From Alphaproteobacteria bacterium (GTDB lineage Bacteria > Pseudomonadota > Alphaproteobacteria > UBA9219): a DNA stretch of 64,000 nt. Shown piece by piece: positions 29,895-35,699 of this stretch. The stretch lies in assembly GCA_026225415.1 (NCBI GenBank), contig JAMFSS010000001.1, forward strand, positions 248,001-312,000. The letters run 5' to 3'. Under the pieces are notes generated by a model. That model was not told the DNA's origin. It did not search any database and worked only from the letters and a program-made list of their open reading frames with translations. The translations under genes were made by a program, and so were the position numbers. The stretch's first letter is position 1. Each line of letters starts with the position of its first letter.

Positions 29895-29898
29895 GCGC

Positions 29899-30606
29899 AT
29901 GAAATTTACGATTATCGGAAGCGGTAAAACGGGGCAGGCTGTTATTGATGCCTTGCCGCCGCAAGATGTCGTGGGTGTTTTCAATTCGCGCCATCCTGTG
30001 ACTGTGGATGCTTTGCGCAAAGCTGATGTGGCCGTGGTTTTTGTGCCCGCCAAAGCTTTTGCCGATATGGTGCCATTGTTTATGGAAGCCAGAACGCCTT
30101 TGGTGATCGGCACCACGGGATATGAGTGGCCACAGGATATCGACGCGCGATTACGCGCGGCGGGTATTGTTTGGGTGGCGGGACAGAATTTCAGCCTCGG
30201 TTTGAACGTCATGCGTTATTACGGGCAACGCATTAAGCAAACATTGAACGCGTTGCGGCCTTCCGCGTTGAAGATGCGCATTAACGAAATCCATCATGTC
30301 CACAAGCTGGATGCACCCAGCGGAACCGCTTTATATATCGCCAAGTCGCTTGATTTTCCGCGCAGCGATATAACGGCTGTGCGCGAGGGTGAGGTTAAAG
30401 GCATCCATACCGTCCATTTCGACTGGCCGCACGAAATCATCAGTTTGGCGCATGAATCCTTGGATCGCGGTATTTATGCCGAGGGGGTTTTGTTGGCTTG
30501 TGAGGGCATAAAAAACCTGTCGGCGGGGCTTCATTTTTTTGAGAATATGGCGGATGATATTATTGAACAATCATTGTTAAGTGACACCCCCACTGGCAAA
30601 AACTAA
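29899..30606 (+). CDS. dapB: 4-hydroxy-tetrahydrodipicolinate reductase
   Basis: A 235-residue NAD(P)H-dependent enzyme of lysine/diaminopimelate synthesis. The start at 29899 gives the Rossmann motif MKFTIIGSGKTGQAV at once. The catalytic signature is EIHHVHKLDAPSGTAL, with the substrate-binding His and Lys. The protein is somewhat short. Its last eight codons (SDTPTGKN) and stop lie within a palindromic repeat (30580-30668), so the original 3' end has been replaced. It leads dapB-dapA-dapD and follows hemB by four bases. Confidence 0.93.
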   Translation: MKFTIIGSGKTGQAVIDALPPQDVVGVFNSRHPVTVDALRKADVAVVFVPAKAFADMVPLFMEARTPLVIGTTGYEWPQDIDARLRAAGIVWVAGQNFSLGLNVMRYYGQRIKQTLNALRPSALKMRINEIHHVHKLDAPSGTALYIAKSLDFPRSDITAVREGEVKGIHTVHFDWPHEIISLAHESLDRGIYAEGVLLACEGIKNLSAGLHFFENMADDIIEQSLLSDTPTGKN

Positions 30607-30708: not shown

Positions 30709-31611
30709 ATGAAAGCAAAACAACAATATTTATGGACAGCACTCATTACGCCTTTTGCCGCCGATGGCGCGGTTGATTATGCCGGTTTGGCGGAACTGAT
30801 CAAACAACAGGATAATGCCGGAAACGGCATTTTGCTTTTGGGCAGCACCGGCGAAGCAATGGCTTTGGCCGAAGATGAAAAACGTGAAATCGTGCGCGTT
30901 GCGTTAAGCCTTAAAACCAAAAGCCCGATTATGGTGGGCGTGCCGAATATCAATCTGGCACAAACTTTGGCGTGGGTTGAAACCTGCCGCGGCTTGGGCA
31001 TTGATGCTTATCTGGCCGCGACGCCCGCTTACAGCAAGCCAGCATCACAGGGACAATGTGGTTGGTTTTGCGCGGTAATGGATGCCGCCGATGCGCCCGT
31101 GATGCTCTATAATGTGCCGTCGCGGACAGGGGCCAGCCTGTCACCCGATGTTTTGCGCGAGCTGCGCGGACATAAAAACTTCTGGGCGATTAAGGAATCT
31201 TCCGGCGGGTTGGATGCTTATGTCGATTACGCGTCTGCCGCGCCCAATATCGCGCTTTATTGCGGTGATGATAATATCTTGCCTTCGGCGGCCCCTCTGG
31301 GTGCTTGCGGGTTGGTGTCGGTTGCGTCGAATGTGTGGCCGGATGCTACGCACGCCTATGTCGATGCCTGCCGCGCCGGTGTTTTTGGCGGACAGGATTG
31401 GTGGAAAGCGACCAAGGCCTTGTTCAGCACGACAAGCCCTGTACCCTTGAAAGCATTGATGCAGTTGCGCGGTATGATTGCGTCAAACACTGTGCGCTTG
31501 CCATTGAGCATTGCGGATTTGGGTTCGACAGACGCCTTGAAACAGGCCGATGCGGCAATTGCCGAATGGCACAAAAACTACAGCGCCCAAAACAAAGGAA
31601 AAGCGGCATGA
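30709..31611 (+). CDS. dapA: 4-hydroxy-tetrahydrodipicolinate synthase
   Basis: A 300-residue TIM-barrel aldolase condensing pyruvate with aspartate semialdehyde. Recognised from LWTALITPFAADGAVDY, LLLGSTGEAMAL (Thr of the proton relay), the Tyr of VMLYNVPSRTGASLSPD, and the Schiff-base Lys of FWAIKESSGG. Length is normal. Its stop overlaps the dapD start (ATGA). Confidence 0.96.
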   Translation: MKAKQQYLWTALITPFAADGAVDYAGLAELIKQQDNAGNGILLLGSTGEAMALAEDEKREIVRVALSLKTKSPIMVGVPNINLAQTLAWVETCRGLGIDAYLAATPAYSKPASQGQCGWFCAVMDAADAPVMLYNVPSRTGASLSPDVLRELRGHKNFWAIKESSGGLDAYVDYASAAPNIALYCGDDNILPSAAPLGACGLVSVASNVWPDATHAYVDACRAGVFGGQDWWKATKALFSTTSPVPLKALMQLRGMIASNTVRLPLSIADLGSTDALKQADAAIAEWHKNYSAQNKGKAA

Positions 31612-32342
31612 GCCACCAGGAATTTTTGCGCGCGTTAGAAGCGGGCAGCCTTCGCGTTGCCAAAAAAGATGCAGACGGTGTATGGCAGATCAATACAGAC
31701 ATCAAACAACGTATTCTCGATTATTTCGCCGCGCATGGTTTGGTGGAAATGTCAAACGGCTTTGTCGATAAACAAGGCTTTGAACCGCGCCAATTTAAAA
31801 TTACTGACGGCGTGCGTATGGTGCCGGGCGGAACATCCGTAAGGCCGGGTGCCTATGTCGCGCCAAAAACTGTGATTATGCCGCCGGCTTTTGTGAATAT
31901 CGGCGCCTATATCGATGAAGGCACGATGGTCGACAGTAATGTGCTGGTCGGGTCCTGCGCGCAAATCGGCAAATCGGTGCATCTGAGCGCGGGTGTGCAG
32001 ATTGGCGGCGTATTGGAACCCATTGGGCAATTGCCTGTTATCATTGAAGATCACGCCTTTATCGGCGCGGGCAGCGCGATTTTGGAAGGCGTGCGCGTGG
32101 GCGCGCATGCTGTCATTGCGGCGGGCACGATTTTATCGGCCTCTATCCCTATTTATGACACGGTGCATGAACGCATTATCAAGGGCGCGGTTCCCGCCAA
32201 CGCGGTTGTGGTTTCCGGCTCGCGCCCTATGTCGAATGATAGTGAATTTGCTAAAGGTTTGCATATCCAATGCGCGGTTATCATCAAATATCGCGATGAG
32301 AAGACCGACAAGGCATTGCAGTTGGAAGATTATTTGCGATGA
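31608..32342 (+). CDS. dapD: Tetrahydrodipicolinate N-succinyltransferase
   Basis: A 244-residue left-handed beta-helix acyltransferase making N-succinyl-2-amino-6-ketopimelate; it marks the succinylase branch of DAP synthesis. The ATG at 31608 overlaps the dapA stop; it gives the standard N-terminus MSHQEFLRALEAG. Hexapeptide repeats run from VRPGAYVAPKTVIMPPAFVN through FIGAGSAILEGVRVGAHAVI. Signature residues in MVDSNVLVGSCAQIGKSVHL are intact. It overlaps the next gene by four bases. Confidence 0.96.
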   Translation: MSHQEFLRALEAGSLRVAKKDADGVWQINTDIKQRILDYFAAHGLVEMSNGFVDKQGFEPRQFKITDGVRMVPGGTSVRPGAYVAPKTVIMPPAFVNIGAYIDEGTMVDSNVLVGSCAQIGKSVHLSAGVQIGGVLEPIGQLPVIIEDHAFIGAGSAILEGVRVGAHAVIAAGTILSASIPIYDTVHERIIKGAVPANAVVVSGSRPMSNDSEFAKGLHIQCAVIIKYRDEKTDKALQLEDYLR

Positions 32343-33241
32343 GCCTCATTGACCCTGTTACCTATACCGGTGCAGAACCGGGTAAGCGATTGTTGGTGTT
32401 GGGCGCGGTGCATGGCAATGAAAAATGCGGCACCTTTGCCATTCAACGTATCATCAGGGAAATTGAATCCGGTGATATAAAAATCGCGCGTGGCTCGGTA
32501 ACTTTTGTGCCGATATGTAACAAGGCGGCATTCGATGCGGATGTGCGTTACATCGACCGTAACCTGAACCGCTTTTTGGTGCCACATTCCAACCCGACAT
32601 TGAATGAAGAAAAAATTGGCAATGAATTATGTCCTTTGCTGGAGCAATGCGACGTTTTGCTTGACCTCCATTCCTATACGGTTGGCGGCGATCCGTTCGT
32701 GTTTATCGGCGCGCCCGATACGGAAGAACACATATTTGCCAATTGTCTTGGCGGCGCGGCGGGAATTACGGGCTGGGCAAAGGCCTATGCTGCTTCGGGC
32801 AGAGAAAGCGTCCCAACAGATCCGGATGAATCAACTGGCACCACCGAATATGCCCGCCGGTTCGGTGCTATGGGCGTCACGCTGGAATGTGGCCAACACC
32901 GCGACGAAAACGCGCCTGCGGTCGCCTATCAAGCCATAAGAAACGCCCTGAATTATCTGGGGCTATGCGATGATCTGGGTGCGGGCGCGTCGCCCCTTAT
33001 GTCGCGGCTGATTGAGGTTAAACGGGTGTTTTTTCGTGGGCAGGGTGGCGATTTCACCAAAGGCTGGAAACATTTGGAGCCTGTGAAAAAAGGCGAGGTG
33101 ATAGCCACAGATGAACATCATGAGCCCCTAAGCGTGCCGGATGACGGTTATTTGATTTTACCCCACAGGGACACGCATGCTGGTACTGAATGGTTTTATT
33201 GGGGACAAGCCCGCGTTTCTGCACGTCCAAAGATTGCCTAA
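32339..33241 (+). CDS. Zinc-dependent M14-type deacylase (AstE/aspartoacylase family) in the dap operon
   Basis: A 300-residue enzyme of the succinylglutamate desuccinylase/aspartoacylase family. The zinc ligands are visible: His25 and Glu28 in LGAVHGNEKCG and His111 in LLDLHSYTVGG. The substrate-binding RNLNR is at about 74-78 and the likely catalytic Glu183 is in VTLECGQHRDE. There is no signal peptide. It begins inside the dapD stop (ATGA) and occupies the place where dapE, the succinyl-DAP desuccinylase, would be expected. The reaction class (removal of an N-succinyl group from an amino acid) is right for that step. This role is inferred; no ast (arginine catabolism) genes are nearby. Confidence 0.85.
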   Translation: MSLIDPVTYTGAEPGKRLLVLGAVHGNEKCGTFAIQRIIREIESGDIKIARGSVTFVPICNKAAFDADVRYIDRNLNRFLVPHSNPTLNEEKIGNELCPLLEQCDVLLDLHSYTVGGDPFVFIGAPDTEEHIFANCLGGAAGITGWAKAYAASGRESVPTDPDESTGTTEYARRFGAMGVTLECGQHRDENAPAVAYQAIRNALNYLGLCDDLGAGASPLMSRLIEVKRVFFRGQGGDFTKGWKHLEPVKKGEVIATDEHHEPLSVPDDGYLILPHRDTHAGTEWFYWGQARVSARPKIA

Positions 33242-33287: not shown

Positions 33288-35699
33288 ATGCGTATTGCGT
33301 TAGTGTGCGGCGGGCCATCGGCGGAGCGGGGTATATCCCTGAATTCCGCGCGTTCGGCTATGGATCATTTGACCCCTTTGGGTTGGGAAATCGTGCCGTT
33401 TTATTGCGATCTGGGGCGGCATTTTTACCGTCTATCTCCCTCGCAACTTTATTCCAATACGCCATCGGATTTTGATTACAAGCTGGCGCATACCGCAGAG
33501 CCCTTGACGCAAACCGAATTTTTGAACGCCTGCCGCGAAACCGATATTGTCTTTCCCGCCATCCACGGCGCGTTTGGCGAAGATGGCGAATTGCAGGCGA
33601 TGCTGGAAGCGCACGACATTCCGTTCGTCGGTTCGCCGTCCAGCGCTTGCAAGCTCATGTTCGATAAAGGTATCGCAAATACCCACATGGCCAAAAACGC
33701 TTTTGCCGTGTTGCCCAATTGTCGGGTGAATAGTGGCGATACGGCGGAAGCCAGCCTGCAGGCCATTACCGAATTTTTCAAAAAACATCATGTCACCAAA
33801 GCGGTTGTGAAACCTTCCGCTGGCGGTTCAAGCCTCGGCGTAGCGACCGCCGCGACGCCGCAAGAAGCCTTGGCGCGGGCGCAAGATATCTTTGAACAAA
33901 AACATGGCACGCAGGCATTGATTGAGCCTTATTGCCAGGGCCGCGAATTCACAATCGTGGTTTTGCAGAACAGCGATAACCAGCCGGTTGCGCTTATCCC
34001 GACCGAAATCGATTTAACCGGCGGCGATCTTTTCACCTTCCGCCATAAATATCTGCCGACCTGTCATGTGGAATATCATTGCCCGCCGCGTTTCGGCGAT
34101 GATGTTATTGCGCGCATCCAAAAAGACGCGGAAACTTTGTTCACCTTTTTCGGCATGCGTGATTTTTCGCGGCTTGATGGCTGGTTGCTGGATGACGGGC
34201 GCGTGATTTTTTCTGACTTCAATCCTATTTCGGGGATGGAGCAGAATAGTTATCTGTTTATTCAAGGCAGCCGTATCGGTTTCACGCATGGCGATATGCT
34301 GCGCATCATTGTGACGCATGCTGCGCAACGTTACAGCATTGATTACACCACGCAGGCGGTTGCCAAAAATCCGCAACCCCAAAAAGTGCGCGTGTTGTTC
34401 GGCGGCATGACGGCGGAACGTCAGGTTTCACTGATGTCGGGCACCAATGTCTGGTTGAAATTGCTGCACAGCGCGGGTTATGTGCCCGAACCCTATATTC
34501 TGGGCGCCAATCGCGAAATCTGGCATTTGCCATATAGTTTTACGCTTAACCACACGGTTGAAGAAATTCTGGCGCGGTGCGGCGAGGCGGAACAGATTAT
34601 CGCGCGGTTAAAAACATTGGTGCCGCCGATACGCGCAAGATTGGGTTTGCCCGCCTTGACGGATAACGCCTTTAAAATGCCGCGCAAGATGAGTTTGTCG
34701 CAATTTTGTTTGGAAGCCGTTGGCGAGCAAGCTTTCGTCTTTATCGCGCTTCATGGCGGCGAGGGCGAAGACGGGACCTTGCAGGCCGAACTCGATCGTT
34801 ATGGCTTGCCGTATAACGGCTCGGATACCGATGTGTCGCATTTGTGCATGGATAAAGACGCGACCGGTCGCGCCATTGATGCGTTGGATAATCCTTTGCT
34901 GGTATCGGCGGGTAAATTAATCGTGACCGCGAAACAGGTGGCAGAGGCAGAAAATATCTGGAAAGCGGCGACGCATAAATTCCAAAGCTATGATATTTTA
35001 ATCAAGCCTCAATCGGACGGATGTTCCGCAGGTGTCGTGCGTTTGAAATCAGCACAGGAACTGAAAATCTATTTGCAGGCTTTGACCGATGGAAAAACAT
35101 TTTTACCTGCAGGCACATTGTCGCAACAACCGAATATGATCGAAATGCCTTTGTCTTCAGCGTCTTTCATGCTGGAGCCGTTTATTGTGACAGATGCCAT
35201 TCAGATTGCGGGGTTGGAATTGGTGCATATCGCGCGCACCGGCTGGGTGGAATTAACGGTCGGCGTGTTGGAAGAAAATGGCCGTTATCATTCCCTATCG
35301 CCCAGTATCACCGTGGCGCATGGCAGCGTTTTGTCTTTGGAAGAAAAATTCCAGGGCGGCACCGGCGTCAATTTAACGCCGCCGCCGGAATCGATTATTT
35401 CGGTCAAGCAGGCCAATCTGATTAAAACGCAGATTGAACAGGCGGCCAAGGCGTTGGGGATTCAAGGTTATGCCCGTATCGATATTTTCTTTAATGTCGT
35501 GACGGAACAAACCTTGGTGATTGAAGCGAACAGTCTACCCGGCCTAACCCCCTCTACCGTCATCTATCATCAGGCTTTGGCGGAACTGCCGCCTTTGACA
35601 CCACAGGAATTTTTGGCGCAGCTGGTTGAATTCGGATTGGAACGCCGCGCCCTTGCGCAGGCGCAGAATTTGATGCCGCCGCGCGTATCACGGGAATAA
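33288..35699 (+). CDS. ddl: Tandem D-alanine-D-alanine ligase (two ATP-grasp halves fused)
   Basis: An 803-residue protein made of two Ddl-like units. The N-half (1-360) has ALVCGGPSAERGISLNSARS, FPAIHGAFGEDGELQAMLE and the ATP-loop VVKPSAGGSSLGV, but its metal/ATP motif reads FSDFNPISGMEQNS instead of the usual EVNTxPGxT. The C-half (about 370-780) has RVLFGGMTAERQVSLMSG, IALHGGEGEDGTLQAELD and a near-normal IEANSLPGLTPST, but a changed ATP loop (IKPQSDGCSAGVV). Each half is thus degenerate at a different motif. It makes the D-Ala-D-Ala end of the peptidoglycan stem. It sits between the dap genes and PBP1a rather than beside ftsQ, where ddl is usually found. Confidence 0.88.
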   Translation: MRIALVCGGPSAERGISLNSARSAMDHLTPLGWEIVPFYCDLGRHFYRLSPSQLYSNTPSDFDYKLAHTAEPLTQTEFLNACRETDIVFPAIHGAFGEDGELQAMLEAHDIPFVGSPSSACKLMFDKGIANTHMAKNAFAVLPNCRVNSGDTAEASLQAITEFFKKHHVTKAVVKPSAGGSSLGVATAATPQEALARAQDIFEQKHGTQALIEPYCQGREFTIVVLQNSDNQPVALIPTEIDLTGGDLFTFRHKYLPTCHVEYHCPPRFGDDVIARIQKDAETLFTFFGMRDFSRLDGWLLDDGRVIFSDFNPISGMEQNSYLFIQGSRIGFTHGDMLRIIVTHAAQRYSIDYTTQAVAKNPQPQKVRVLFGGMTAERQVSLMSGTNVWLKLLHSAGYVPEPYILGANREIWHLPYSFTLNHTVEEILARCGEAEQIIARLKTLVPPIRARLGLPALTDNAFKMPRKMSLSQFCLEAVGEQAFVFIALHGGEGEDGTLQAELDRYGLPYNGSDTDVSHLCMDKDATGRAIDALDNPLLVSAGKLIVTAKQVAEAENIWKAATHKFQSYDILIKPQSDGCSAGVVRLKSAQELKIYLQALTDGKTFLPAGTLSQQPNMIEMPLSSASFMLEPFIVTDAIQIAGLELVHIARTGWVELTVGVLEENGRYHSLSPSITVAHGSVLSLEEKFQGGTGVNLTPPPESIISVKQANLIKTQIEQAAKALGIQGYARIDIFFNVVTEQTLVIEANSLPGLTPSTVIYHQALAELPPLTPQEFLAQLVEFGLERRALAQAQNLMPPRVSRE

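Follow-up and report, generated by a model that had tools for sequence, protein, structure and literature searches.

How does a bacterium that makes the N-succinylated intermediate of diaminopimelate (DAP) synthesis remove the succinyl group when the usual desuccinylase, DapE, is not at hand? The question is raised by a gene in the window, by which we mean the whole stretch of 64,000 nucleotides of alphaproteobacterial DNA analyzed here, where an enzyme of the AstE/aspartoacylase type lies directly behind dapD. The DapE step serves both lysine and peptidoglycan synthesis, and in E. coli grown on rich medium the genes dapABDEF cannot be dispensed with (PMC5764234; the word desuccinylase does not occur in that paper). 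DapE is also discussed as an antibiotic target.

The dap gene run and its fourth member

The genes dapB, dapA and dapD are followed, in that order on the plus strand, by the AstE-like open reading frame (ORF), and four-base overlaps join dapA to dapD and dapD to the AstE-like ORF.

29896 to 30606, plus strand: dapB, divergent (PF05173 and PF01113 over cut-off; TIGR00036 93.1, under 122)
30709 to 31611, plus strand: dapA (TIGR00674 259.7, over 206.15)
31608 to 32342, plus strand: dapD, tetrahydrodipicolinate N-succinyltransferase of the short divergent type (NF008808 296 bits, over 204)
32339 to 33241, plus strand: AstE/AspA-family zinc deacylase, proposed succinyl-diaminopimelate desuccinylase (300 aa, ATG start; PF24827, AlphaFold2 model)

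The DapB of the window is short, at 236 aa, as well as divergent and below the TIGR00036 cut-off. The AstE-like gene is followed, after 46 bases, by a gene (33288 to 35699, plus strand) for an 803-aa protein with two tandem D-Ala-D-Ala ligase modules. PF01820 and PF07478 each match this protein in two stretches, and a homologue in L068 is 74% identical.

By its model scores the window's DapD is of the succinyl type: it passes NF008808 and falls far under the cut-off of the acetyl-type model TIGR03532 (99.5 against 231.75); it is also under the cut-off of TIGR00965 (200.6 against 375.4). When it was used as a phmmer query, N-succinyltransferase structures ranked above N-acetyltransferases.

In a Pfam scan at E 0.001, the 300-aa protein matched only the AstE/AspA superfamily domain PF24827 (AstE_AspA_cat; 75.2 bits against a cut-off of 25), and no M20 domain (PF01546) was found; the same domain is matched by all 47 members of our larger alignment, and the ORF is the only AstE/AspA-family match in the whole genome. 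No NCBIfam model was exceeded. Curated cut-offs rejected identity as AstE proper (TIGR03242, 24.3 bits against 305.65), as the aspartoacylase PRK02259 (NF002601, 40.6 against 180) and as DoeB (TIGR02994, 33.6 against 402.7); the protein forms a subfamily of its own within the AstE/AspA superfamily. A weak match to the N-acetyl-ornithine deacetylase model NF052223 in 3 of the 47 members (best E 0.00031) is a lead only.

A chance ORF at this position is excluded by conservation in an alignment of 20 proteins from the same order, in which H25, E28, R70, N77, R78, H111, E183 and Y287 are invariant; the 47-row alignment lists the same residues as invariant except Y287. The roles given below for the zinc ligands, R70, N77/R78 and E183 are what we take them to be by transfer from aspartoacylase and carboxypeptidase A; all the codons listed are invariant in both the 20 and the 47 rows.

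32411 to 32422, plus strand: codons of H25-x-x-E28, presumed zinc ligands
32546 to 32548, plus strand: codon of R70, presumed substrate or transition-state residue
32567 to 32572, plus strand: codons of N77-R78, presumed carboxylate binding
32669 to 32671, plus strand: codon of H111, presumed third zinc ligand
32885 to 32887, plus strand: codon of E183, presumed catalytic glutamate

The AlphaFold2 model of the protein (pLDDT 92.6, pTM 0.91) predicts an AstE/AspA-family fold, and in structure comparison it matched AstE, AspA and DoeB structures (3cdx with Z 26.9, rmsd 2.6 and 267 aligned residues). The gene, the predicted fold and the conservation of the site are thus shown. An earlier note, made from the sequence alone, had claimed an AstE/aspartoacylase-type ORF behind dapB, dapA and dapD with a four-base overlap, which the ORF coordinates bear out, and an M14-type zinc deacylase with intact HxxE...H and catalytic Glu, which held through PF24827 and the invariance of H25, E28, H111 and E183. 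Its AstE/aspartoacylase-type label is right for the superfamily; the protein is not AstE proper. Its statement that DapD makes an N-succinylated intermediate in need of a desuccinylase is supported by the NF008808 and TIGR03532 results.

DAP synthesis in the genome

The genome that carries the window comprises 2,019,590 bases (2.02 Mb) and is 100% complete. A normal dapE elsewhere in it, which had been set beforehand as grounds for refutation, was looked for and can be rejected: the genome contains a single M20 peptidase match, which scores as ArgE (NF005710, 421.6 against 412; TIGR01892, 364.3 against 297.7), and no protein exceeded the DapE cut-off in the profile search, the best TIGR01246 score (117.1 against 361.8) coming from that same ArgE. 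Replacement of the succinylase branch by DapL was likewise rejected, as the best DapL match, at 129.1 bits against 364.7, came from an aminotransferase that exceeds the cut-off of the alanine transaminase model (773 against 647) and scores below cut-off on LL-DAP aminotransferase models. DapF is present. We looked for a dedicated dapC in the genome and identified none; in E. coli the dapC step is done by argD and serC (PMC5764234).

The presence of DapD, together with the lack of DapE, is shown, as is the presence of DapF. DapD without DapE or DapL was our criterion for an alternative succinyl-DAP desuccinylase (EC 3.5.1.18), and the genome meets it; meso-DAP dehydrogenase was outside the search, and hydrolysis is inferred.

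Distribution within the order and class

The same 59 genomes, 33 from the order of the window's organism (families f1-f3) and 26 from the remainder of its class, were searched for the AstE-like protein, DapE, DapD, DapL and DapF. In the order, a strong AstE-like match was defined as E<1e-50 and DapD as E<1e-40, the model cut-off being applied for DapE and DapL; the M20 hits of carriers other than the window's own genome were sorted by the DapE cut-off alone. Within the order, 18 of the 33 genomes had a strong AstE-like match and 3 had DapE over cut-off (G026, G027 and G032), and no genome had both. Among the 15 order members with DapD, 12 had only the AstE-like protein, 2 only DapE, none both and 1 neither (Fisher p 0.029, uncorrected for kinship; here and below, Fisher tests count related genomes as independent). 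In the genome with neither enzyme, G015, the contig ends 298 bases from dapD. The DapE model, even at E 0.001, found nothing in five of the 12 (G011, G014, G025, G029 and G031). Among the 26 genomes from outside the order, the best AstE-like match was 3.4e-15 and none was strong; DapE was over cut-off in 20.

A referee may point to the 6 of the 18 carriers without strong DapD (G008, G012, G018, G019, G022 and G030). Four are under 80% complete (G008 79%, G012 63%, G019 69% and G022 78%), and in G030 the contig stops just past the AstE-like gene, where its relatives G024 and G028 carry dapD. Counting against our reading, G018 lacks strong DapD at 96% completeness and G008 also has DapL; in G018 and G022 there are DapL-like matches under cut-off. 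In the organism's own genus, strong DapD is missing from four genomes (G001, G003, G006 and G008) whose DapL exceeds its cut-off, and DapL accounts for these four.

Three other members of the genus, G002, G004 and G009 (96 to 100% complete), have neither strong DapD nor a strong AstE-like match, and neither DapE nor DapL over cut-off, and their source of DAP is unexplained. Two genomes carry two AstE-like copies each, in tandem in G014 (L073, 9140 to 10902) and at L078 and L079 in G011; neither has a DapE-model match.

The wider family in Beta- and Gammaproteobacteria

When a collection of genome contigs was scanned with the alignment and the best 80 of a larger number of loci were kept, these came from Alphaproteobacteria and Micavibrio bins and, at about 40 to 46% identity, from Beta- and Gammaproteobacteria, so that confinement of the gene to its own lineage is rejected. 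Two of the loci, L141 (titled a Klebsiella pneumoniae MAG) and L125 (a Candidatus Kaiserbacteria MAG), bear titles that do not fit their beta- or Micavibrio-like genes and are probably mis-binned or mis-titled. The genomes of 50 of the 80 loci, some of which overlap the first set of relatives, divided into 24 with DapE over cut-off and 26 without; DapD was over cut-off in 19 of the 26, and in all 5 of the DapE-bearing genomes run alongside.

The order of Chitinibacter (G103, itself without a DapE-model match at E 0.001) offered a larger sample of 299 genomes, of which 258 had DapE over cut-off and 55 a strong AstE-like match. The threshold here, E<1e-60, was not critical, the 55 genomes standing at 1.1e-63 or better and the next at 4.4e-29. 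The AstE-like protein alone was found in 29 genomes, DapE alone in 232, both in 26 and neither in 12, so that the AstE-like protein occurs in 29 of 41 DapE-lacking genomes against 26 of 258 DapE-bearing ones (Fisher p 4.9e-16, again uncorrected for kinship); this table covers the two enzymes only and not DapD. The 12 genomes with neither are G159, G237, G238, G253, G254, G257, G324, G327, G336, G357, G358 and G401.

The presence and absence pattern is shown; what it means for substrate is less certain. Our confidence for the wider family is lowered because many beta- and gammaproteobacterial carriers also have DapE, and given this coexistence (24 of 50 genomes; 26 of 55) a different or additional substrate is possible for the wider family.

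Gene neighborhoods and loss of dapE

The synteny of the AstE-like gene with dapD was examined across relatives. Both G005 and G007 show the run dapB-dapA-dapD-AstE-like again. In G016 one contig ends with dapB-dapD and a different contig starts with the AstE-like gene, which is only suggestive. In other arrangements dapD is the convergent neighbor of the AstE-like gene (G024, G028 and L203) or lies upstream on the same strand (L108, where it is 3 bases away, L109 and L114, the last with one ORF between), and in L122 it is dapF that lies 10 bases upstream. The dapD genes of L108, L109, L114, L083 and L203 and the dapF of L122 pass their family models, the DapD of the first four being of the ordinary kind that passes TIGR00965. 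As evidence to the contrary, dapD is adjacent in only 5 of the 18 carriers of the order in the stretches fetched, the window's own genome included, and inspection by eye of 7 beta- and gammaproteobacterial loci revealed no dap neighbors. The neighborhoods themselves are shown: dapD or dapF adjoins the AstE-like gene in several arrangements, and not in all carriers.

The fate of dapE was surveyed in 10 of the 11 beta- and gammaproteobacterial carriers with DapD and without DapE, G079 being omitted for its short contig. The DapE-bearing genomes of Noviherbaspirillum (G067) and Ramlibacter (G069) have the order dapC-dapD-pilU-dapE-prmB. In all 10 surveyed carriers dapC adjoins dapD (dapC was over its cut-off in L189), and in 6 of them (G066, G068, G091, G097, G101 and G105) prmB comes after pilU without an intact dapE between them; pilU had no match at that site in the remaining 4. 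Between pilU and the body of prmB, G101 (AstE-like gene in L159) keeps a relic of dapE, a stretch of 52 residues that is 54% identical to DapE and matches positions 115 to 165 of TIGR01246 with 57.5 bits. Retention of the succinylase branch with loss of dapE is what would be expected if another desuccinylase were present, although a role of the AstE-like enzyme in permitting that loss is inferred and not shown.

In a tree of 64 AstE-like proteins, 63 rows were labeled by whether the host has DapE. This label switches 6 times on the tree, and supported branches force at least 4 of the switches; the count is rough, since incomplete bins account for some of the "without DapE" labels. Chromobacterium, which has DapE, and Craterilacuibacter, which lacks it, are neighbors, for example. 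Two separate subfamilies for carriers with and without DapE are not supported, the two kinds being intermixed. The tree fits a history in which DapE was lost repeatedly by lineages already holding the AstE-like enzyme, and where the enzyme stands beside DapE, as in many lineages, it may be redundant or may serve another substrate.

Proposed function and alternative explanations

We consider it likely that the AstE-like enzyme is the succinyl-DAP desuccinylase of this organism, acting in place of DapE; there are no activity data, and activity on succinyl-DAP is inferred. This reading is supported because presence and absence in relatives, gene neighborhood and the loss of dapE in other carriers agree. 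The earlier note's proposal of a non-orthologous DapE replacement is thus upheld by genome content, relatives, neighborhoods and dapE loss, its enzymology remaining an inference.

The substrate and chemistry are inferred rather than shown. In the proposed mechanism, a zinc amide hydrolase of the AstE/AspA superfamily, made from one gene run with DapB, DapA and DapD, would remove succinyl from N-succinyl-L,L-diaminopimelate. Zinc would be held by H25, E28 and H111, and E183 would act as general base for the attack of a zinc-activated water on the succinyl amide. As in carboxypeptidase-like enzymes, R70, N77/R78 and Y287 would hold the transition state and the carboxylate next to the amide.

The alternative that survives best, although we think it unlikely, is that ArgE, the M20 enzyme, also cleaves succinyl-DAP and that the AstE-like enzyme acts on another N-acyl amino acid. 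ArgE and DapE are related, the genome has ArgE, and many AstE-like carriers also have DapE. Against this, six carriers (G103 and the five named above from the organism's order) have no DapE-model match, although the model detects the ArgE of the window's genome, and several arrangements tie the AstE-like gene to dapD or dapF.

Also very unlikely is a pathway in which DapD transfers acetyl and the AstE-like enzyme serves as deacetylase of N-acetyl-DAP. In its favor, the divergent DapD of the window falls short of TIGR00965, and the related DoeB is named as deacetylase of an N-acetyl diamino acid; however, this DapD passes NF008808 and is far under TIGR03532, and other carriers have a TIGR00965-passing DapD (L108, L109, L114 and L083) and dapC-dapD pairs. 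Synthesis of DAP through DAP dehydrogenase or LL-DAP aminotransferase, with dapD and the AstE-like gene serving otherwise or vestigial, finds some support in the four same-genus relatives that use DapL and in the sub-cut-off scores of the organism's aminotransferase on LL-DAP aminotransferase models, but it is very unlikely (with the reservation that meso-DAP dehydrogenase was not searched for), as that aminotransferase passes the alanine transaminase model, dapD is intact in one run with dapA and dapB, and DapL-bearing relatives lack strong DapD, as if the routes were mutually exclusive.

We infer, with activity untested, that an M14-fold class of succinyl-diaminopimelate desuccinylase that has displaced DapE more than once is the best reading. 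A bolder version, which we hold to be more likely than not, is that a second, independently evolved desuccinylase class with the M14/AstE fold extends across the Alpha-, Beta- and Gammaproteobacteria, having displaced DapE several times and left dapC-dapD without dapE and, in one case, a dapE relic; one copy in the two-copy genomes G011 and G014 may also cover another M20 deacylase step, such as that of ArgE.

Comparison with known systems

The earlier note held that this would not be a standard assignment, and the open-access literature searched contained no account of an AstE-family enzyme in the role of DapE; most subscription papers and all preprints were beyond its scope, and a report may exist elsewhere. 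The novelty, with activity inferred, lies in a role that the literature searched does not assign to this otherwise known superfamily, and in the replacement, apparently widespread, of an essential enzyme by a non-homologous one. Gaps at this step are on record: GapMind lists a missing DapE for Pedobacter and missing DapE and DapC for Echinicola (PMC7311316), and for Ilumatobacter a lack of dapE has been reported and dapL proposed (PMC3910706). If our reading is correct, a non-homologous stand-in for DapE fills an annotation gap and explains bacteria seemingly unable to make DAP, and DapE inhibitors would miss bacteria that use it. The swap can be seen both at an intermediate state, where a genome has the two enzymes side by side, and at an end state, where a dapE relic is left, and is thus a good natural case of enzyme replacement.

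Among superfamily members, aspartoacylase (PRK02259 and human ASPA), which has been placed in M14 (PMC11511702), has active-site residues in common with the window's protein but differs in its model score, given above, and in having only 16% identity in the structure alignment with the human enzyme (2o4h and 2i3c). DoeB/EutE (N2-acetyl-L-2,4-diaminobutanoate deacetylase, TIGR02994) shares the fold (6twm, Z 25.9, rmsd 2.9, 268 aligned) and, judging by its name, takes an N-acylated diamino acid; the window's protein is nevertheless far below its cut-off. AstE, the succinylglutamate desuccinylase (TIGR03242), has the predicted fold and the active-site plan in common with the window's protein (E. 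coli AstE 1yw6 against the model, Z 23.4, rmsd 3.4, 256 aligned). It also takes a succinyl group off an amino acid. The window's protein is set apart from it by a score of 24.3 bits against 305.65 and by its loci, which, where seen, are linked to dap genes and not to arginine catabolism. DapE (M20, TIGR01246) has the same proposed reaction and pathway step and is unrelated in sequence and family, the window's protein having no M20 domain, and its relic in the wider-family carrier G101 marks the gene that was vacated.
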